From assembly GCA_017547165.1 (NCBI GenBank), contig JAFYQK010000020.1:1-52522 (forward strand): a stretch of DNA of 52,522 nt, read 5' to 3'. Below the pieces are notes generated by a model. The model did not search any database. It was not told the DNA's origin and saw only the letters and a program-made list of their open reading frames with translations. The DNA comes from Bacteroidaceae bacterium. Its GTDB lineage: Bacteria > Bacteroidota > Bacteroidia > Bacteroidales > Bacteroidaceae. Positions within the stretch are counted from its first letter, which is position 1. Every line of letters begins with the position of its first letter. The position numbers were made by a program, and so were the translations under genes. Below, one piece after another: positions 5,365 through 44,372 of this stretch.

Positions 5365-5799
5365 ATGCCAAAAAAGATTCATACTTCAATTCCTTCGCAC
5401 TATCCCGTTTGCGTACACAGAGATTGCCCTTTGGCGCATAGTTGTCTGAGACGCAATGCGTATCTTGCTCTTACACAGAAGCAGGAGTGTATGCAAGTTG
5501 TTAACCCAGAGAGGTGCATACAGGGTGAAGGGTGCCAGTATTTCCGCACCAATACTCTTGTTATCTATGCCAAGGGATTTCTTAACTTCCAGAAGAAGAT
5601 GACTCAGGAGCAGTACCAAAAGTTCTTGGATATATTGCAGAGCAAGTTTGGGCGCAATCCGTATTTTGAGCGTCGCAATGGCAAAACTCTGCTCACTCCA
5701 GATGAGCAGGCCATGATATTAGAGACGCTAAGACTGGTTGGTATAAAGGACGAATACAGGTTCGACTCGTACATAGAATCGTTTGACTGGAATGCCTAA
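5365..5799 (+). CDS. Small cysteine-rich protein, DUF6078-like
   Basis: A 144-residue cytosolic protein of unknown function. Its N-terminal half has a cysteine/histidine pattern (HYPVCVHRDCPLAHSCLRR, then EC, ERC, GEGC) that could bind a metal such as zinc. Its C-terminal half is helical (MTQEQYQKFLDILQSKFG; LTPDEQAMILETLRLVGI). The arrangement matches what I remember of the Bacteroidales DUF6078 family, but I could not check this. It stands alone, has its own strong promoter, and is followed at once by a hairpin (5802-5822). Genes of this kind are often found near integrated elements; no function is proposed. Confidence 0.7.
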   Translation: MPKKIHTSIPSHYPVCVHRDCPLAHSCLRRNAYLALTQKQECMQVVNPERCIQGEGCQYFRTNTLVIYAKGFLNFQKKMTQEQYQKFLDILQSKFGRNPYFERRNGKTLLTPDEQAMILETLRLVGIKDEYRFDSYIESFDWNA

Positions 5800-7079: not shown

Positions 7080-7121
7080 TTATGATGTTGAGATGCGTTA
7101 GTGTGAGAGGGGGTGGAGGAG

Positions 7122-7592
7122 TTACTTCTTGCCACGAGGGCCATGTTGCCTATTATAGTTTTGCAACATGTGGCGGTGCATACGGTCTTCGATGTTCAGT
7201 ATTTTGAACAGTTTCTCGGCAGAGATAAGTTTGCAGAGCTTTTTATAGTAAACTGAGTCAAGAGCAGCCAATTCGGTGTTGAGTTTGGCAATCTTCATAA
7301 GGCGCTCCTCGAAGTTGGTTTCCTCATTGACATTTTTGCTACGCTTGAGGGCATGGATCTCCATATTGATTTTGCGCTGCTCGTTCTTGTATTCGTTAAA
7401 CACGGGGAAGAAAACCTTTGCTTCGTCGTGAGTTAAGTTTGCTTCCTTGGTAATGAAATCCTGCATGCGCTGGCGAAATTCGTGCTGACTGAATCGAGGA
7501 CGGCGTTCACCTTCTCCCCTACCCTCAACCTCTTGTGCATGAGAAAATATTGCAACTGCGAAGAGTGTACAAATCAATAGTATCTTTTTCAT
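7122..7592 (-). CDS. Periplasmic Spy/CpxP-like helical protein
   Basis: A 156-residue exported protein (signal peptide KKILLICTLFAVAIFSHA) that is almost all helix and highly charged. It begins with a GEGERRPRFS segment and then reads like LTxxQ-type Spy/CpxP/heavy-metal-resistance proteins (DFITKEANLTHDEAKVFFPV, then KLNTELAALDSVYYKKLCKL). Such proteins act as periplasmic chaperones or stress sensors. It is the last gene of an ECF sigma/membrane protein operon (8597 to 7122), so it is probably the envelope-stress effector of that regulon. The exact family is not certain. Confidence 0.65.
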   Translation of the reverse strand: MKKILLICTLFAVAIFSHAQEVEGRGEGERRPRFSQHEFRQRMQDFITKEANLTHDEAKVFFPVFNEYKNEQRKINMEIHALKRSKNVNEETNFEERLMKIAKLNTELAALDSVYYKKLCKLISAEKLFKILNIEDRMHRHMLQNYNRQHGPRGKK

Positions 7593-7632
7593 TTTTAGTC
7601 AATTTATAGCGTTATTGATGTATTTTATTTTA

Positions 7633-8025
7633 TCAATCGGCAACGGTAAGGAAATACTCTATGTCGGTATTGTTAAGCATTGCATAGTCGAGGGTTTCGT
7701 CCGTAGACTCCAGATAAAAGATTTCGGCTAATTGCGTATTATCAGCCATTCTGTCAGTGGAGAAACTTTGCTCGTACATCATAATACCTGCGAGTGAGAA
7801 GAAACCTGTCAGCACAGCGGCAGCAGTAAGGCGGATAAAGAAACGACTGCGGCGTCTCGTCACTTTCTTGTTGGATGCAGGAGCCGATTCCTGATGAATG
7901 CGTTGCATTATCGTGTGTGGAAGCGTATCAAAATATCCCTCTGGCACACGAAATGCTTTATTGGGAGACGACGAGTGTTTCATCTCGTCCATCCAAGGTG
8001 CGTTGTTAATATTATCTTGTTTCAT
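7633..8025 (-). CDS. Single-pass membrane protein, probable anti-sigma factor
   Basis: A 130-residue protein with a soluble N terminus (APWMDEMKHSSSPNKAFRVP, then EGYFDTLPHTIMQRI), a basic stretch (KKVTRRRSRFFIRL), one transmembrane helix (about residues 61-82, TAAAVLTGFFSLAGIMMYE) and a short acidic periplasmic tail. The VPEGYFDTL motif is typical of small Bacteroidetes proteins encoded just after ECF sigma factors. The cytoplasmic part would bind the sigma factor; this role is inferred from position. It starts 18 bp after the sigma gene and ends 41 bp before the periplasmic protein gene. Confidence 0.65.
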   Translation of the reverse strand: MKQDNINNAPWMDEMKHSSSPNKAFRVPEGYFDTLPHTIMQRIHQESAPASNKKVTRRRSRFFIRLTAAAVLTGFFSLAGIMMYEQSFSTDRMADNTQLAEIFYLESTDETLDYAMLNNTDIEYFLTVAD

Positions 8026-8042
8026 ATGCGTTGTGATGGTTT

Positions 8043-8597
8043 TTATTGCAGTAGTTCGAAATAAGTGGTAATCTTTTGTACGGCATGGTGGTAGGATGCC
8101 TTTAGTGCCCCGATGCTTGTGCCAAGTATCTGACTGATGTCCTCGTATTTCATCTCCTGAAAATATTTCATATTGAAAACCTGGCGTTGCTTGGGCGGAA
8201 GGGCTTGGATGGCCTGCTGGAGTTGGACCTCCGCTTCGTCGCCATCGAAGTATGGGTCGCTCTCCAGCTGAAGCTTAATGGCGTCGGTTTCGGAGTCGGT
8301 GGCAGACGAAATACTGATGGTGGGCAGTTTCTTCTTTTCGAGAAAGTTGATAGTCTCGTTATACGCTATGCGATAGAGCCATGTGGACAAGCGAGCATCA
8401 CCTCGGAAATGTTCCAATCCCTGCCATGCTTTCAGAAAGACATTCTGTAGTATATCGTCGGTGTCATCATGAGTGAGCACCATACGGCGTATTTGCCAAT
8501 ACAACTGCTGCTGAAATTCCTTAACAAGAATCTCAAAAGCCTTCTCGCGCATTGCGGGGTCGCTTAATTGCTGTATCAGTTGTTTTTCGTTGTACAT
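8043..8597 (-). CDS. ECF-type RNA polymerase sigma factor
   Basis: A 184-residue sigma-70 family protein of group 4. Region 2 is visible at about 35-85 (DDTDDILQNVFLKAWQGLEH, then ARLSTWLYRIAYNETINFLEKKK). Region 4 is at 130-175 (LQQAIQALPPKQRQVFNMKY, then FQEMKYEDISQILGTSIGALKASYHHAVQKI), the helix-turn-helix that reads the -35 element. It heads a three-gene operon with a membrane protein and a Spy-like protein, a layout typical of envelope-stress control in Bacteroidetes. The start is the only good ATG before region 2. Confidence 0.93.
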   Translation of the reverse strand: MYNEKQLIQQLSDPAMREKAFEILVKEFQQQLYWQIRRMVLTHDDTDDILQNVFLKAWQGLEHFRGDARLSTWLYRIAYNETINFLEKKKLPTISISSATDSETDAIKLQLESDPYFDGDEAEVQLQQAIQALPPKQRQVFNMKYFQEMKYEDISQILGTSIGALKASYHHAVQKITTYFELLQ

Positions 8598-10237: not shown

Positions 10238-12037
10238 TTATTCGCCCTTCTGCATCTTAGCCTTCAACTCAGCCAAAGCATCGAAGTCACCAAGTGTGGT
10301 GCTTGCTGCCTGGTTCTGAATTGCAGGAGCTTCCTCCTTGCGAGCTGCATTTGCTGCCTTGCGAGCTGCATTTGCTGCCTTCTTCTCAGCACGAGCCTCT
10401 GCACGCTGAACATCTTCGAAGATGCGGCTGTGGCTGAGGATGATGCGCTTGCTCTCCTTGTTGAACTCGATTACCTTGAACTGGAGTTTCTCGTTCAACT
10501 GAGCCTGAGTGCCGTCCTCCTTAACAAGGTGCTTGGGAGTAGCGAAGCCCTCAACGCCGTAAGACAACTGGATAACAGCGCCCTTGTCCAACAACTCGAT
10601 GATAGTACCCTCGTGGATAGAATCCTGAGTGAATACTGTCTCGAATACGTCCCAAGGATTCTCCTCCAACTGCTTGTGACCGAGAGAGAGACGACGGTTA
10701 ACCTTATCGATTTCCAATACAGAAACCTCAATAGTCTCACCTACCTTTGTGAACTCGCTGGGGTGCTTAACCTTCTTGGTCCAGCTGAGGTCGCTGATGT
10801 GAATCAAACCATCAACACCTTCCTCTATCTCAACGAATACACCGAAGTTGGTGAAGTTGCGAACCTTAGCAGTGTGCTTGCTGCCGATGGGGTACTTCTC
10901 TTCGATAGTCTCCCAGGGATCGTTCTTAAGCTGCTTGATACCCAAAGACATCTTGCGCTCGTCGCGATCGAGAGTCAAAATAACTGCCTCAACGTCGTCG
11001 CCAACCTTCATGAAGTCCTGTGCGCTACGCAAGTGCTGGCTCCAAGACATCTCGCTAACGTGGATAAGACCCTCTACGCCAGGCGCAACCTCAACGAATG
11101 CACCGTAGTCAGCCATAACAACAACCTTACCCTGTACGCGGTCACCTACATTCAACTCGCTGTTCAAAGCATCCCATGGGTGAGGAGTCAACTGCTTCAA
11201 ACCAAGAGCGATACGCTTCTTCTCATTATCGAAGTCAAGGATAACAACATTGATCTTCTGATCCAACTCAACAACCTCGCGAGGATTGCTTACGCGACCC
11301 CAGCTCAAGTCTGTGATGTGAATCAAACCGTCTACGCCACCCAAGTCGATGAATACACCATAAGAGGTGATATTCTTAACGGTACCCTCAAGTACCTGAC
11401 CCTTCTCGAGCTTACCGATGATCTCCTGCTTCTGCTGCTCAAGCTCAGCCTCGATGAGAGCCTTGTGGCTAACAACAACATTGCGGAACTCCTGGTTGAT
11501 CTTAACAACCTTGAACTCCATGGTCTTGCCAACGAAGATATCGTAGTCGCGGATGGGCTTAACGTCGATCTGAGAACCGGGCAAGAATGCCTCGATACCA
11601 AATACGTCAACAATCATACCACCCTTAGTGCGGCACTTAACGTAACCCTTGATAATCTCATCGTTGTCGAGAGCCTCGTTCACACGGTCCCAAGACTTAG
11701 CTGCGCGAGCCTTCTTGTGAGACAGAATGAGCTGACCCTTCTTGTCCTCCTGATTCTCGATGTATACCTCAACGGTGTCACCTACCTTCAGTTCGGGATT
11801 GTAGCGGAACTCGCTTGTGGGGATGATACCATCGCTCTTGAAACCGATGTTTACAACAACCTCACGCTTGTTCATTGCAATAACGGTGCCATCTACTACA
11901 TCGTGGTCACCTACCTTGTTCATGCTGCCAGCATAAGCCTGCTCCTGAGCTTCAAGGCTTACCTCTGTGCTGCTACCGTTCTCAAATGCTTCCCAATCGA
12001 AGCCTTCAACGGGAGCTACATTTTTGTAATCTGCCAT
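10238..12037 (-). CDS. rpsA: 30S ribosomal protein S1
   Basis: A 599-residue protein with six S1 RNA-binding repeats, recognised by recurring GxxVxGxVxxxxxxGxFVxxxxGxxGLIHxSxxSW motifs (for example VKNITSYGVFIDLGGVDGLI and VVMADYGAFVEVAPGVEGLI). It binds mRNA on the small subunit and helps translation initiation. In Bacteroidetes, where Shine-Dalgarno sites are weak, S1 is especially important. The C-terminal tail has a repeated alanine/arginine/lysine segment (KKAANAARKAANAARKEE) coded by near-identical 18-bp units. The gene is monocistronic with a TACCTTTG promoter and a strong terminator. Confidence 0.97.
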   Translation of the reverse strand: MADYKNVAPVEGFDWEAFENGSSTEVSLEAQEQAYAGSMNKVGDHDVVDGTVIAMNKREVVVNIGFKSDGIIPTSEFRYNPELKVGDTVEVYIENQEDKKGQLILSHKKARAAKSWDRVNEALDNDEIIKGYVKCRTKGGMIVDVFGIEAFLPGSQIDVKPIRDYDIFVGKTMEFKVVKINQEFRNVVVSHKALIEAELEQQKQEIIGKLEKGQVLEGTVKNITSYGVFIDLGGVDGLIHITDLSWGRVSNPREVVELDQKINVVILDFDNEKKRIALGLKQLTPHPWDALNSELNVGDRVQGKVVVMADYGAFVEVAPGVEGLIHVSEMSWSQHLRSAQDFMKVGDDVEAVILTLDRDERKMSLGIKQLKNDPWETIEEKYPIGSKHTAKVRNFTNFGVFVEIEEGVDGLIHISDLSWTKKVKHPSEFTKVGETIEVSVLEIDKVNRRLSLGHKQLEENPWDVFETVFTQDSIHEGTIIELLDKGAVIQLSYGVEGFATPKHLVKEDGTQAQLNEKLQFKVIEFNKESKRIILSHSRIFEDVQRAEARAEKKAANAARKAANAARKEEAPAIQNQAASTTLGDFDALAELKAKMQKGE

Positions 12038-38919: not shown

Positions 38920-39936
38920 ATGAAAGACACATTGAACCACGAAACAATATTAGGAAACAACTCCTCAATCATAATTTATCAGAGCGAGGACGGGCAGACA
39001 CAATTGGAGGTTAAACTCCAGGAGGAAACCGTGTGGTTGACAACAAACCAGATGGCGGAGTTGTTCGGACGAGACAGAACCGTAGTTGGTCGCCATATAA
39101 AGAACTGTTTTAAAGAGGGAGAACTTGACCCCAATATCACATGTGCAAAAATTGCACATATGGGTAAAGACGCAGACCAAGTATATGAAACAGTCTTGTA
39201 CAATCTTGATGTAATCATCTCCGTAGGTTATAGAGTAAAATCGGTAAACGGCACTCGTTTCCGCCAATGGGCCAACAGGGTGCTGAAGGACTACCTCATA
39301 AAAGGCTATGCCATCAACCAGAACATGAAACTGGAGCGATACAACGAACTGAAGAATGTGGTGCAACTGATGGCAAGGGCGATATCGCTTCAGGAGAGCG
39401 TCTCCAACAACGAGTACGACGGACTGTTCCATGTCATCAGCGACTATGTCTATGCCCTTGACACATTGGACAGATATGACTTCCAGACTCTTGCCATTAA
39501 CCAGACTACAGCCGACGAACCCTTCCGTGCCACCTACGACAATGCCATGGCTGCCATAAATGCCCTGAAGGATAAGTTCGGAGGCAGCAAGTGGTTTGCC
39601 AACGAGAAGGACGATTCCTTCAAGAGCAGCATAGGACAGATTTATCAGACCTTTGCCGGTGTGGAACTTTACCCATCGGTAGAGGAAAAGGCCGCCATGC
39701 TTCTGTATCTTGTGGTAAAGAACCATTCGTTCAGCGACGGCAACAAGCGCATTGCCGCCATGCTATTCCTATGGTTTATGGAAAAGAACGGTGTGCTGTA
39801 TGGCGAGGATGGACGCAAGCGCATAGCAGACAACACCCTCGTGGCTCTCACCCTGATGATTGCCGAAAGCCGCACAGAGGAGAAGGACATTATGGTAAAG
39901 GTGGTGGTAAACCTAATCAACAAGGACAACAAGTAA
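38920..39936 (+). CDS. RhuM/Fic-Doc fusion protein (virulence protein RhuM/Fic/DOC family)
   Basis: 338 residues in two parts. The N-terminal RhuM-type domain (about 15-135) contains VWLTTNQMAELFGRDRTVVG and GYRVKSVNGTRFRQWANRVL, a Bro-N-like fold found in phage and virulence proteins. The C-terminal Fic/Doc domain (about 150-335) has the core HSFSDGNKRIAAMLF at 269-283. The Lys in GNK matches Doc-type (phosphotransfer to EF-Tu) rather than the GNGR of AMPylating Fic enzymes. No small antitoxin gene is visible beside it, although an inhibitory helix could lie within the protein. It is a known but poorly understood architecture. Confidence 0.85.
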   Translation: MKDTLNHETILGNNSSIIIYQSEDGQTQLEVKLQEETVWLTTNQMAELFGRDRTVVGRHIKNCFKEGELDPNITCAKIAHMGKDADQVYETVLYNLDVIISVGYRVKSVNGTRFRQWANRVLKDYLIKGYAINQNMKLERYNELKNVVQLMARAISLQESVSNNEYDGLFHVISDYVYALDTLDRYDFQTLAINQTTADEPFRATYDNAMAAINALKDKFGGSKWFANEKDDSFKSSIGQIYQTFAGVELYPSVEEKAAMLLYLVVKNHSFSDGNKRIAAMLFLWFMEKNGVLYGEDGRKRIADNTLVALTLMIAESRTEEKDIMVKVVVNLINKDNK

Positions 39937-40019: not shown

Positions 40020-41144
40020 ATGAAGAAACATATCAACGAAACTACACACTCTACTATACTTCCAAGTGTACTCAGCATCAATGCCTCAGACTCCACTGGG
40101 GAAGCAGGTATTGTGGCTGATATTGGTACCATATCTGCTTTGAGAGGCAGACCATTAGCGGCAATGACCTCTATTATGGGGGGACCACAACACATCTCTG
40201 ATCTGCCCACAGAACTGGTATTGAGACAGATTAGTTCGGCATTACTGAAAGGCAGTCCAAAGGCCGTAAAAGTTGGTTTTCTCTCTGACTCCTTGACCAT
40301 AGAAAGTCTGACTTCCATCATACAAGCGGTGCCTCGCAAGGTGATGGTTCCTTCGATAATAGATTCTACTGGAAACAAACTATTATCGCCACAGGCCATA
40401 GACATGTGGATCAAACACCTTTTTCCTTTGGCAGACCTGCTTATCCTGAAGGTATGCGAAGCGGAAGAGATTTTAGGAATAAAGATACACACGGATGCCG
40501 ATATGCTGAAGGCTGCCGGCATATTGTGTGAAATGGGTGCAAAGGCCGTAATGTTACGTGGCGCAGAAATAAGTGATGGGTATTTGACGGCAGTACTGTT
40601 GCACCAAAACGGACACCGGTTCTTCACCTCGCGCAACATGGACAAATGGAGGCGCCATGGTATGGCGGGAGCCTTGTCAACTGCCATAGCCACACGATAT
40701 GCCATGGGCGATTCTACAGAAGAGGGTGTGCTGAATGCTCATTCCTACATACATTCGCACCTCATCTATTCGATAATGCCTTCTCAAGGTATGCCTGCAC
40801 TGAGATCGGCAGATATTTACAACGGCTTCCTCTCGCTTCTAACCGAACATTATGCCTCGGCGCACGATGTTGCCTTCTATGCCGGGAAGTTGTGCGTTTC
40901 TACCCGTTATCTACAGGAGGTAACCGACAAGATGGCCGAAAAGACTCCCAAACAGATTATCACTGACTACCTGATGCAAGAGGCTTGCAACATGCTCAAG
41001 GGTACACGACTGACCATACAACAAATCGGTCTGCGCCTAGGGTTCAGTTCGCAAGCCCAATTCTCGCGCTTTTTCTCCAGAGAATGGGGACTATCGCCAC
41101 AGGCCTACAGGTTCGATGCAGAACAGAAGACATCGGACAAATGA
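40020..41144 (+). CDS. ThiD-like kinase-fold/AraC DNA-binding fusion regulator
   Basis: 374 residues. Residues 12-250 are related to hydroxymethylpyrimidine (phosphate) kinase ThiD: SVLSINASDSTGEAGIVADI replaces the usual GSDPSGGAGIQAD. The catalytic GTGC loop is replaced by HGMAG (213-217), so kinase activity is doubtful. Residues 265-365 form an AraC-type double helix-turn-helix (VAFYAGKLCVSTRYLQEVTD; LTIQQIGLRLGFSSQAQFSR; FFSREWGLSPQAYR). The natural reading is a transcription regulator whose pyrimidine- or pyridoxine-binding fold senses a vitamin. The next gene is a pyridoxamine kinase, so a B6 vitamer is the likely ligand; HMP is the alternative. Confidence 0.8.
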   Translation: MKKHINETTHSTILPSVLSINASDSTGEAGIVADIGTISALRGRPLAAMTSIMGGPQHISDLPTELVLRQISSALLKGSPKAVKVGFLSDSLTIESLTSIIQAVPRKVMVPSIIDSTGNKLLSPQAIDMWIKHLFPLADLLILKVCEAEEILGIKIHTDADMLKAAGILCEMGAKAVMLRGAEISDGYLTAVLLHQNGHRFFTSRNMDKWRRHGMAGALSTAIATRYAMGDSTEEGVLNAHSYIHSHLIYSIMPSQGMPALRSADIYNGFLSLLTEHYASAHDVAFYAGKLCVSTRYLQEVTDKMAEKTPKQIITDYLMQEACNMLKGTRLTIQQIGLRLGFSSQAQFSRFFSREWGLSPQAYRFDAEQKTSDK

Positions 41145-41210
41145 ATGAGCGAAATGCGGAGTAGTCTTTTGCATTTTCGGAATAAAGTTTGATTATTTAA
41201 GAAGAACTCC

Positions 41211-41241
41211 TTGCGTATTCATGTTTTTGCCTATACCTTTG
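41211..41241 (+). promoter_or_regulatory. Promoter of the pyridoxamine kinase gene
   Basis: TTG at 41211-41213, 20-bp spacer, TACCTTTG at 41234-41241, 42 bp before the start codon. The region just upstream (41155-41180) would be the place for an activator or repressor site. Confidence 0.65.
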
Positions 41242-41282
41242 CACTCGAAATTTTAGGTATAACATAAAAAGATTGAATAACA

Positions 41283-42107
41283 ATGGCAGACAAAAGATTA
41301 CTTACCATTCAGGACATTTCATGCGTAGGTCAGTGCTCACTCACCGTGGCTCTGCCCATCATCTCGGCTTGTGGTGTGGAGTGCGGCATATTGCCCAGCT
41401 CTGTACTTTCCAACCATACAGCTGGTTTCTCTGGCTGGACATTCTTCGACCTCACCGACGAGATGCCCAACATCCTGGCCCAGTGGAAGAAGGAGAATGT
41501 GAAATTCGACGCATTCTACACCGGTTATGTGTCAAAGGCACAGATTCCTCACATCCTCCGCATTATGGAAGAGGCAGCCAACGAGGGTGCTCTGCGCATC
41601 GTTGACCCCGTAATGGGCGATGGTGGCAAGCTGTATCCCGGTTTTGATGATGACTTCCCACAGGAGATGTGCAAGTTGTGCAAGGGTGCCGATGTGATTA
41701 TGCCCAACATGACCGAGGCTGCCTTGATGCTTGGCGAAGAGTATCGCACAGAGTATGACCAGGCTTACATCGAGGATATGCTCAAGCGCCTCTATGCCCT
41801 GGGGGTCAAGAATGTGTTGCTGACAGGTGTTAGCTTCGAGGAAGGCAAACTGGGTGTGGCATACTATGATGGCAACGAGACAAAGTACTACTTCACCGAG
41901 CGCATCCCCGTGTCAATGCATGGTACAGGCGACTGCTATGCTTCGTCATTTGCTGGTGCCCTGATGCGTGGTCATGATATTTTGGATGCTGCCGCTATTG
42001 CCGCTGACTTCGTGGCAGAGACCATTCGCCAGACTATGGGCGACGAATCTCACTGGTGGGGTGTGAAGTTTGAGAAGGCACTGCCTTATCTTATTAGCAG
42101 AATGTAA
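41283..42107 (+). CDS. Pyridoxamine/pyridoxal kinase (PfkB superfamily)
   Basis: 274 residues. It phosphorylates B6 vitamers (pyridoxal, pyridoxamine or pyridoxine) for salvage of pyridoxal phosphate. The catalytic loop MHGTGDCYASSFAGAL (212-227) with the aspartate base Asp217, the metal/phosphate region VDPVMGDGGKLYP (107-119) and the substrate strip SNHTAGFSGWTFFDL are visible. It starts MADKRLLTIQDISCVGQCSL like other pdxY/pdxK proteins. It has its own promoter and lies downstream of the ThiD-AraC regulator and upstream of a Tsx-like outer-membrane gene. A truncated relative of its 3' end occurs at 42849-42929. Confidence 0.92.
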   Translation: MADKRLLTIQDISCVGQCSLTVALPIISACGVECGILPSSVLSNHTAGFSGWTFFDLTDEMPNILAQWKKENVKFDAFYTGYVSKAQIPHILRIMEEAANEGALRIVDPVMGDGGKLYPGFDDDFPQEMCKLCKGADVIMPNMTEAALMLGEEYRTEYDQAYIEDMLKRLYALGVKNVLLTGVSFEEGKLGVAYYDGNETKYYFTERIPVSMHGTGDCYASSFAGALMRGHDILDAAAIAADFVAETIRQTMGDESHWWGVKFEKALPYLISRM

Positions 42108-42205
42108 TAACGGCAAGAGGGAAGCGGATGAGCATAAATAGGCTCTACCATCTTTTCCTAGTTCTTCCTATCCCCCTAGATAGGACACAACAACAAGTAA
42201 AAAAA

Positions 42206-42847
42206 ATGAAGAAATTATATACTCTAATATTTATGTGCCTGATGGCAACAATGGCCAAGGCGCAGGTGTACGGCAACCTACAACTTCAATACGACTATGG
42301 TCACAACTACGGCACTCTGACCACAGAGATAGGTCATACACAGAAGTCGGGCAACGGCTGGGGTTTCGTGGACTTTGACTTTGGCAAAGTGGCCGACAAC
42401 GGCATGTACTTTGAGTATGGCTACAACTTCCGCTTGAAGAACAACTTCTACGCCCATGCCGAGTACGATGGTGGCGTTCTGTTCGATAGCGGCATCACCT
42501 ATGCCCATGGCGTACTGCTGGGTGGTGCATACCAGAAGTCTATAAAGAAGACCTTCCTACAGTTCAACCTGCTCTACCGCATGGACATCGACTACCGCCT
42601 GGGCACTGCCGGGCACGGTCTTCAAGGTACTGCCGTGTGCAACACCAAGTTCCTCCGCGACAAGCTCTACTTCGAGGGCTATGTGGACCTCAACTACAAG
42701 GCCACCGAGGAGCGCTTCCAGTTCAGCACCGAGCTGCAACTGCTCTACAATTTCAAATACTTTGGTGCAGGTGTAGAGGTTGAGCTTGAGAACTATTTCG
42801 GCAAAGTACAATGCTCTCCCAAAATGATGCTTAAGTATAGCTTCTAA
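42206..42847 (+). CDS. DUF5020 family outer-membrane channel (Tsx-like)
   Basis: 213 residues with a signal peptide (KKLYTLIFMCLMATMAKAQV). It continues as beta strands rich in aromatic residues (LQLQYDYGHNYGTLTTEIGH, WGFVDFDFGKV, FEYGYNFRLKNNFYAHAEYD) and ends in a terminal strand (SPKMMLKYSF). I assign it to DUF5020, which is related to the nucleoside channel Tsx. It is 98 bp downstream of the pyridoxamine kinase gene and probably cotranscribed, so I infer that it passes B6 vitamers or related small aromatic molecules across the outer membrane. The frame is open to an ATG at 42128, but 42206 begins exactly at the signal peptide. Confidence 0.75.
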   Translation: MKKLYTLIFMCLMATMAKAQVYGNLQLQYDYGHNYGTLTTEIGHTQKSGNGWGFVDFDFGKVADNGMYFEYGYNFRLKNNFYAHAEYDGGVLFDSGITYAHGVLLGGAYQKSIKKTFLQFNLLYRMDIDYRLGTAGHGLQGTAVCNTKFLRDKLYFEGYVDLNYKATEERFQFSTELQLLYNFKYFGAGVEVELENYFGKVQCSPKMMLKYSF

Positions 42848-43370: not shown

Positions 43371-44372
43371 TTAAATCCTCACCTTCACGCTCTTGTTGCC
43401 GAACTTCACTACCACTATAGTACCGCTCTGCAAACCGGTGCTGATGGTTGCTGTGCCGTCGGCAGCAGTTGCACGGGCAACCTCTGTGCCACTGATGGTG
43501 TAAACCGTCACATCAGTATCTTTTGCCACACCGCTAACGGTCAGTATGCCGCCATTGCCTTGGATGAGGACCGGAGCAGTCTCCACGCTGATGATGCCAG
43601 TCTCCTCATCCACATTGCCGTTCTCCACCCAAACAAGTGCCACATTCACGGTGTCGGAGTTCTCAAAGTTAGCCTTAGTAGCATATACCTCTATGTTGTA
43701 TGTGGCGCTGAGTTCAATTTCGGCATCGTAGTATTCCTTTGCATCCTCAGCGACTAATTTTGTAACATAATTAGCCCCCTCTGTCTCGCAAGAGAAGGAC
43801 AACTTTCCTTCAGCATAAGTCACCACAGGTGTAGCGCATTTCTGCACTTCGGGTTCACCTGCCGAAAGACCTACAATCTTGCCGAAACCGCTCCATGGCG
43901 TATTTGCTTTATAAACATGAATGGAAGCAGCAGGAACATGAAGGGTGGCGTTTGCCATGGGCGTTGAATCAAAAGCATTATTAAATGCAGAAGGCATCGT
44001 CTCGGCATAGCAATAAACTTCGAGAAGTTTGGAGCAACCATAGAAAGCCCCGTTCTCTATGCTCCTCACACTATTGCCGATAGTCACCGAGGTCAAACCA
44101 GTGCAATCCTTGAAAGCCCTCTCCCCTATGATCTTCACACTATTGGGTATAGTCACCGAAGTCAAGCCAGTGCAATTCTTGAATACCTCATCCCCTATCT
44201 CCTCCACACTATCACCTATAGTCACCGAGGTCAAACCAGAGCAATAACCGAAAGCATCCTCCTCTATAATCGTAACACTATTGGGGATAGTAACCGAAGT
44301 CAAACCAGAGCAATACATGAAAGAGCCAAACTCTATGGTCGTCACACTATTGCTGATAGTAAGCGAGGTCAT
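43371..44372 (-). CDS. BspA-like leucine-rich repeat surface protein, 5'-truncated
   Basis: 333 residues. Residues 1-130 are five BspA-type (LRR_5) repeats of 23 residues: LTSVTIPNSVTIIEEDAF, GYCSG and so on. A linker and a domain rich in Asp/Glu/Thr follow, then a T9SS-like C-terminal segment (VSGVAKDTDVTVYTISGTEV). Such proteins sit on the cell surface and bind host matrix or other bacteria. The first repeat begins abruptly, there is no signal peptide, and an in-frame stop lies 39 bp before the ATG, so the gene has lost its 5' end and may not be exported. A 9-bp hairpin marks the break (44402-44429). Confidence 0.75.
   Translation of the reverse strand: MTSLTISNSVTTIEFGSFMYCSGLTSVTIPNSVTIIEEDAFGYCSGLTSVTIGDSVEEIGDEVFKNCTGLTSVTIPNSVKIIGERAFKDCTGLTSVTIGNSVRSIENGAFYGCSKLLEVYCYAETMPSAFNNAFDSTPMANATLHVPAASIHVYKANTPWSGFGKIVGLSAGEPEVQKCATPVVTYAEGKLSFSCETEGANYVTKLVAEDAKEYYDAEIELSATYNIEVYATKANFENSDTVNVALVWVENGNVDEETGIISVETAPVLIQGNGGILTVSGVAKDTDVTVYTISGTEVARATAADGTATISTGLQSGTIVVVKFGNKSVKVRI

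Follow-up and report, generated by a model that had tools for sequence, protein, structure and literature searches.

The stretch of DNA analysed here (the window) spans positions 1 to 52,522 of contig JAFYQK010000020.1, from Bacteroidaceae bacterium assembly GCA_017547165.1, and contains a single open reading frame (ORF) of 374 residues in which an N-terminal ThiD-like kinase fold is joined to a complete C-terminal AraC double helix-turn-helix (Table 1). Judging from sequence comparisons of this fusion, its relatives, their gene neighbours and a predicted operator, we propose that it is very probably a vitamin B6-responsive transcription regulator with a catalytically dead ThiD-fold sensor. 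An initial annotation, made from the DNA letters alone, had described such a fusion, and both parts score above their Pfam cut-offs: residues 24-257 match PF08543 with 134 bits against 27, and residues 287-364 cover 78 of the 80 profile positions of HTH_18 with 65.2 bits against 33.6. The genus was surveyed both as a sample of 61 genomes and in full (139 genomes), including the window's own genome, G000, an assembly that is 84.5% complete. Because 42 other genomes of the genus match the fusion profile at E<=1e-60, the fusion is not a chance ORF.

A probably disarmed kinase domain

The ribokinase-like ThiD fold is intact in the fusion. Since the HGTGC motif of solved ThiD aligns with H213-G-M-A-G217, the window protein carries other residues in place of the Thr, the Gly and the catalytic Cys; the same alignment bore out the HGMAG at residues 213-217 and the ASDSTGEAG, now placed at residues 22-30, to which the initial annotation had pointed. 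Across 53 long fusions, position 217 is Gly in 50, Ser in two and Ala in one, with neither Cys nor Asp in any of them, whereas 29 plain ThiD proteins have Cys (28) or Asp (one) there. Position 144 is likewise Arg or Lys in all 53 long fusions, as against the Asn of the Mg-ATP (adenosine triphosphate) motif in all 29 plain ThiD proteins. D24, G30, D34 and G86 are invariant across the 53 fusions, so the substrate-side loop is kept. As read from these residues, the kinase domain would be catalytically dead. An Arg also stands in place of Lys180 in 50 of the 53 long fusions (40557-40559 in the window, where residue 144 lies at 40449-40451), and Arg/Lys144 and Arg180 could possibly form a site for a phosphate, that of pyridoxal 5'-phosphate (PLP). 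Measured against TIGR00097, the model for the hydroxymethylpyrimidine phosphate (HMP-P) kinase ThiD, the window fusion scores only 127.9 bits where the cut-off is 204.95, and other fusions fall below it as well (189.7 bits in locus L061 and 134.4 bits for the short form of L047).

Short forms of the fusion were looked at in 14 loci, from 13 genus genomes and from G460, which carries both forms. In the three short forms scanned, the best PF08543 stretch runs from profile positions 1-123 to 1-126 of 246 and is followed by the AraC domain; the L047 protein has a second, unlisted PF08543 stretch besides the best one. About 65 residues equivalent to 145-209, on the ATP side, are absent from the short forms, whose N-terminal half is retained, as is the HG helix; two of these proteins, those of L050 and L195, seem to be partly cut short or disrupted. 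The short form still precedes pdxST, the genes of de novo B6 synthesis. Loss of the ATP half with the substrate half kept beside pdxST would be hard to understand in an enzyme and easy in a sensor. G460 has its short form directly 5' of pdxST (the L201/L202 pair) and a window-like long form on a separate contig.

These observations bear on two other explanations. The fusion could have retained kinase activity towards HMP-P or pyridoxal and be enzyme and regulator at once, as archaeal RbkR is listed to be (PMC8305020). The intact fold would permit this and, because the own genome has no PF08543 protein besides the fusion and pdxK, any ThiD step there would need the fusion; its single TMP-TENI/ThiE-like protein is weak (43.2 bits in Pfam, and 39.6 against an NCBIfam cut-off of 145.1). 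Yet with no catalytic Cys or Asp and no Mg-ATP Asn in any of the 53 long fusions, no ATP half in the short forms and a score well short of the ThiD cut-off, an active kinase is quite unlikely. Alternatively, the pseudokinase domain might contact PdxK or PdxS/PdxT and report enzyme load with no vitamer bound, a docking route that fits both the adjacency of these genes and a dead enzyme fold. The invariance of D24, G30 and D34 would be needless for a docking surface, and we give this route only a small chance.

Association of the fusion with pdxST

The weightiest evidence for a B6 regulator comes from comparing genomes. Besides the window fusion, the 61-genome sample yielded 14 long-form homologues, of which eleven align without a break at 42-51% identity and three have a match interrupted by insertions; shorter homologues turned up in six genomes. 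PdxS (PF01680) occurs in 19 of the 61 genomes, and the fusion, long or short, in all 19 of these, although in G044 only its AraC end is visible at a contig edge, nearer the long form (49%) than the short form (35%). Among the 42 sample genomes without pdxS, the fusion was found in two: the window's own and G020, which is 62% complete and whose contig stops 1.4 kb past the fusion. The association gives a Fisher value of 7e-14 over the 61 genomes, uncorrected for kinship.

Over the full genus, long forms at E<=1e-60 are present in 43 of 139 genomes, PdxS in 52 and both in 38, so that the long form accompanies 38 of the 52 pdxS-bearing genomes versus 5 of the 87 others. Thirteen of the remaining 14 pdxS-bearing genomes have the short form beside pdxS, and the last is G044. 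The long form stands without PdxS in G000, G480, G020, G455 and G519; the fusion contigs of G455 and G519 are small (6.3 and 4.4 kb), and the G455 match is cut by the contig end after the kinase part. Where both are present, they share a contig in 32 genomes, always at most 7.4 kb apart, and lie on different contigs in six. A single co-occurrence table (52/0/5/82) was set aside, since the search for short forms in pdxS-less genomes covered only the 61 sampled ones and the G044 protein is of uncertain type. Candidates for missed fusions were taken, among the matches listed (to about E 1e-11), as rows with a match starting within the kinase part; proteins of G042 and G038, both without pdxS, and a second G045 protein were rejected by eye as ordinary AraC proteins with no ThiD part.

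A scan of 84,980 species genomes returned 78 loci, of which 75 have the kinase part. By record title, 74 of these belong to Bacteroidota groups and one, L056, is an 'uncultured bacterium'; among the carriers named as culture-collection strains or isolates are Hallella colorans, Hallella bergensis, Segatella baroniae and Prevotella illustrans. Because many loci are the same genomes, the locus set and the genus set are not independent. In 63 of the 75 loci, pdxS lies within 10 kb of the fusion (49 downstream and codirectional, 13 divergent, one convergent; median gap, 164 bases). These linkage counts come from tblastn, since with longest-ORF calling some of the pdxS genes were masked by antisense ORFs. 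No pdxS was seen in L089 over 8.2 kb downstream, and we take this locus to be G504, whose pdxS sits on another contig. Clustering all ORFs of 16-kb stretches gave two recurrent neighbours, which in L061 exceed the NCBIfam cut-offs as PdxS (512.8 bits) and PdxT (221.5 bits). The pdxK and DUF5020 genes of the window type do not adjoin the homologues from the 61-genome sample.

The initial annotation had left the vitamer as either B6 or hydroxymethylpyrimidine (HMP), and had named orthologues beside thiamine genes as the observation that would speak against it. Such neighbours were looked for in a blind scan, with two libraries, of 126 proteins (of 154 candidate ORFs) encoded at most 5 kb from the fusion; the scan covered 17 loci, three of them included knowingly without pdxS. 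Among the 25 commonest families, PdxS and PdxT came first with 14 matches each, followed by a glycogen debranching enzyme, a glycosyltransferase/glycogen synthase and a GH57 protein with three each. A weak ThiG-model match in 12 members (best E 1.4e-10) would be explained by PdxS proteins cross-matching a related barrel; apart from it, no recurrent thi gene appeared among these families, and PdxS and PdxT are otherwise the sole families in more than three members. Because the blind scan recovers these two as recurrent neighbours, B6 is favoured over HMP. A thiamine-pathway regulator sensing HMP or HMP-P, with a B6 adjacency that is incidental or pathway-linking, would suit a domain whose sequence resembles ThiD more than PdxK, yet the recurrence of PdxS and PdxT, the co-occurrence with PdxS, the operator predicted before pdxS, pdxK and DUF5020, and zero matches of Rfam models in the window (hence no thiamine pyrophosphate riboswitch above threshold) make it very improbable, and the blind scan lowered its already slight probability a little further.

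In a wider sample of 395 genomes of the phylum, with at most five candidates scored per genome, 53 matched the fusion profile at E<=1e-40; the match in the window's own genome alone spans the kinase and the helix-turn-helix, the rest covering the kinase only. Three pdxS-bearing genomes of this sample (G411, G224 and G268) had no fusion in the 16-kb stretches examined, and the tie between fusion and PdxS is consequently a trait of this lineage and not of Bacteroidota. One of these loci, L255 (G411, same family), has pdxS-pdxT at 7096-8545 but lacks both fusion and operator over the 16 kb retrieved, and PdxST in this family is therefore also under other control.

A predicted operator before pdxS and pdxK

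A motif was learned from the regions 5' of pdxS in loci other than the short-form ones (L205 being of unclear type); these 67 regions reduced to 61 non-redundant ones and contributed no window sequence to the matrix. Expectation maximisation followed by two-unit refinement found direct repeats in the pdxS promoters, with unit A reading tTT.tcatTTTCGGAacAa. and unit B reading TTTTaCcAaATgGGAACagA. More than 8 bits were reached in 58 of the 61 regions, at a spacing of 21 bases in 50 and 22 in eight, and three have no convincing site. In 4-fold cross-validation with random folds, in which kin may fall in different folds, 56 of 61 held-out regions exceeded 99% of the null and 53 scored higher than any of the 3,050 null sequences. 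For three fusion-less Bacteroidota, the 300 bases 5' of pdxS give only scores below zero.

Run over both strands of the window, the matrix gave its best match (21.3 bits) on the pdxK strand in the 138-base gap before pdxK, ending 75 bases 5' of the pdxK ATG with a TAnnTTTG match between; an overlapping register came second (20.7 bits), and the next match reached 15.2. Among relatives, the top match of the locus lies upstream of pdxK in G460 (22.0 bits), G464 (14.2) and G479 (10.9), in each of which pdxK and the fusion are on different contigs, and upstream of DUF5020 in G480 (32.2). Both pdxK contigs of G475 stop about 70 bases upstream, too short to judge a site. Across 353,850 positions scanned, ten reach 12 bits: two are training sites (L250 and L251), one is a copy at the 3' end of the G464 fusion, two fall in window coding DNA and the remaining five precede pdxK or DUF5020, with the two overlapping window registers among them. 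In 9 of the 14 short-form loci, the locus-top match lies 58 to 134 bases 5' of the short fusion; in two, one position is higher, and three have no match there. In L048 and L049 the locus-best match sits between the short fusion and pdxS.

Two further features of these promoters were noted. By eye, many pdxS promoters (L055, L057, L066, L068, L078 and similar) carry GGAACGG-N6-CCGTTCC, an inverted copy after unit B and just 5' of the TAnnTTTG box, about 60-80 bp 5' of pdxS, which may be an additional half-site facing the other way. In L250 (G464) the pdxS operator occurs twice, at 5426 and 12609, flanking about 7 kb between the fusion and pdxS that include a transposase-like ORF (10469-11821).

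A proposed move from synthesis to salvage in one clade

In a tree of 59 rows, the window fusion groups with L052, taken as a G480 contig, and then with the G460 long copy, G464 and G479 (100/100); G477 and G528 are outside the tree and have profile scores like those of G464 and G479. The window-type pdxK occurs in 7 of 139 genomes (G000, G006, G460, G464, G475, G479 and G480), and a close DUF5020 (at least 65% identity) in G000, G460, G464, G475 and G480. The two genes are adjacent in G000, in G460, on two G475 contigs and on one G480 contig. For G480, an order of fusion-DUF5020-pdxK is suggested by an exact 141-base end shared between the fusion contig and the pdxK contig. In G464 and G479 the fusion and pdxS are on one contig and the site is already present before pdxK. 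The window's own assembly shows no PdxS (PF01680) and no PdxJ (PF03740), PdxA and ThiC not having been searched for. The simplest order of events would be that the regulator stood at pdxST, that pdxK joined the regulon, and that pdxST was then lost, leaving the salvage genes beside the regulator.

The salvage locus appears to be the state of one small clade, and the usual target is predicted to be de novo synthesis. The earlier proposal of a B6-linked regulator of the neighbouring kinase agrees with the linkage to B6 genes and with the operator 5' of pdxK; it had not brought in de novo synthesis, with whose genes, pdxST, the fusion usually stands.

Features of the window locus

Table 1. Positions of the fusion, its domains, the predicted regulatory elements and the neighbouring genes in the window.
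Feature	Positions	Strand	Evidence
ThiD-like pseudokinase/AraC fusion, proposed B6 regulator	40020..41144	+	ORF, domain matches, homologues
Pseudokinase domain PF08543, Gly217 at catalytic Cys position	40089..40790	+	
AraC-type double helix-turn-helix, HTH_18, residues 287-364	40878..41111	+	Pfam
Possible third repeat unit 5' of operator	41146..41166	+	overlapping-register match, 20.7 bits
Predicted operator, a pair of direct-repeat units with 21-bp spacing	41167..41207	+	matrix trained on pdxS promoters of other genomes, 21.3 bits
TAnnTTTG match (Bacteroidota -7 element)	41234..41241	+	sequence match
pdxK, pyridoxamine/pyridoxal kinase, intact HGTGD	41283..42107	+	NCBIfam match, sequence
DUF5020 protein, possible outer-membrane channel	42206..42847	+	Pfam match, start-site comparison

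The pdxK product scores 267.6 bits with the NCBIfam pyridoxamine kinase model NF005491 (cut-off, 231) and keeps HGTGD, in agreement with the intact kinase of the initial annotation. The DUF5020 neighbour was also correctly assigned to its family (PF16412, 50.5 versus 36.7 bits), while its start had been set at 42128; the likely start is the ATG at 42206, because a signal-peptide-like sequence begins there and the L052 relative starts alike. A structure model built from three sequences has a predicted local distance difference test score of 33.5, unusable for judging a Tsx-like beta-barrel. An ORF at 38920-39936 (+) ends 83 bases 5' of the fusion, and its product is presumably a RhuM-like protein with a Fic-like C terminus. 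Just 3' of DUF5020, at 43371-44372 (-), lies what looks by eye like a BspA-like leucine-rich-repeat protein.

Proposed mechanism

In the mechanism we propose, the pseudokinase pocket would bind a B6 vitamer, pyridoxal or PLP, with no phosphorylation. When B6 is scarce, the apo-protein, probably a dimer, would sit on both operator units beside the promoter and activate transcription, and ligand binding would end the activation. The target would be pdxST in most relatives, and in the window lineage the regulator would serve the salvage kinase gene pdxK and DUF5020, perhaps an uptake channel. We tentatively favour this sign of control, with the apo-form activating and the ligand opposing, because the PdxR of several species works so and because the site adjoins the promoter. 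We also lean toward a broader picture in which these proteins form a family of B6 regulators that went from a whole-fold pseudokinase to a half-kinase, both AraC-fused at pdxST, with the same regulator and operator taken over for salvage in one clade and DUF5020 as a B6 channel of the outer membrane in Bacteroidota.

Several observations weigh against a B6 regulator as set out here. Two loci, L074 and L109, have no pdxS although 10 kb is available to either side, which makes them true exceptions over this range, and ten more without pdxS have shorter flanks (12 of 75 in total). The window-like long copy of G460 has no B6 gene recognised alongside by eye. Relatives of DUF5020 at 31-58% identity occur in 21 other genomes, and the fusion was found in only one of these, G033. 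The missing PdxS and PdxJ come from an incomplete assembly. The window operator is weaker than most pdxS sites and its second unit is degenerate. Since one in 100 random windows of equal length reaches 21.3 bits with either of two Markov nulls, that score alone is only moderately significant, and the operator is made convincing by its place in the pdxK gap, its strand, its distance to the start and the TAnnTTTG match between. There is no site upstream of the window's own fusion (-3.1 bits), which leaves its autoregulation unsupported, nor one upstream of the G464 DUF5020, which lies unlinked on another contig. The pdxK of G006, a genome in which no fusion was found, has a best upstream match of 5.9 bits, yet the accepted G479 site has only 10.9. 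Finally, the short-form sites are weak (3.3-12.0 bits in 11 of 14) and missing upstream in three, several of these loci being close kin.

If the proposal holds, a discarded vitamin kinase would be a second, unrelated solution to B6 regulation, which in bacteria is known mainly via the MocR-type PdxR, and a change from enzyme to sensor would have its intermediate stages preserved in one genus. Regulator and operator together may offer a sequence handle for telling B6 makers from B6 scavengers among the Prevotella-like bacteria of gut and rumen, and for naming the genes involved, and DUF5020 becomes a testable candidate for uptake. Annotation by family name can also mislabel such fusions as HMP-P kinases, crediting genomes with a thiamine step that they possibly lack.

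Comparison with known systems

In the open-licence PubMed Central (PMC) papers searched, we found neither a ThiD-AraC fusion nor an AraC-type B6 regulator. The parts are known: the AraC domain, the ThiD fold, enzyme-derived B6 sensors and the fusion of a vitamin kinase with a helix-turn-helix. Relative to those papers, what is new is their combination, the disarmed or halved sensor, the operator and the move from synthesis to salvage.

Compared with ThiD and ThiD-type pyridoxal kinases (4jjp, 4c5l and 2i5b), the fusion is without the catalytic Cys/Asp, has Arg/Lys for Asn and has gained a helix-turn-helix. With AraC/XylS regulators it shares HTH_18, and its predicted operator would likewise consist of two direct-repeat half-sites 21 bp apart beside the promoter. 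The half-site spacing of AraC is comparable (21 bp); the AraC/XylS sensor is a cupin-like arm, whereas that of the fusion is a kinase fold. The RbkR kinase, in turn, has a different fold from that of the fusion. In PMC8305020, RbkR is listed as a regulator and active enzyme in which a vitamin kinase is fused to a DNA-binding domain; it thus resembles the fusion in uniting the two in one regulator and differs from it in being active.

A parallel in function would be PdxR. According to PMC5320631, PdxR regulons join pdxST, pdxK and transport, PdxR is set beside pdxST, and in several species the apo-protein activates and PLP opposes. Like PdxR, the fusion would use an enzyme fold as a B6 sensor, and its predicted regulon, judged from sites and neighbourhood, would also comprise pdxST or pdxK. 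PdxR consists of a GntR domain and an aminotransferase-like domain, neither of which is among the Pfam matches of the fusion, where a ThiD-fold pseudokinase is followed by an AraC double helix-turn-helix. On our best reading, the fusion is a functional counterpart of PdxR built from unrelated parts.

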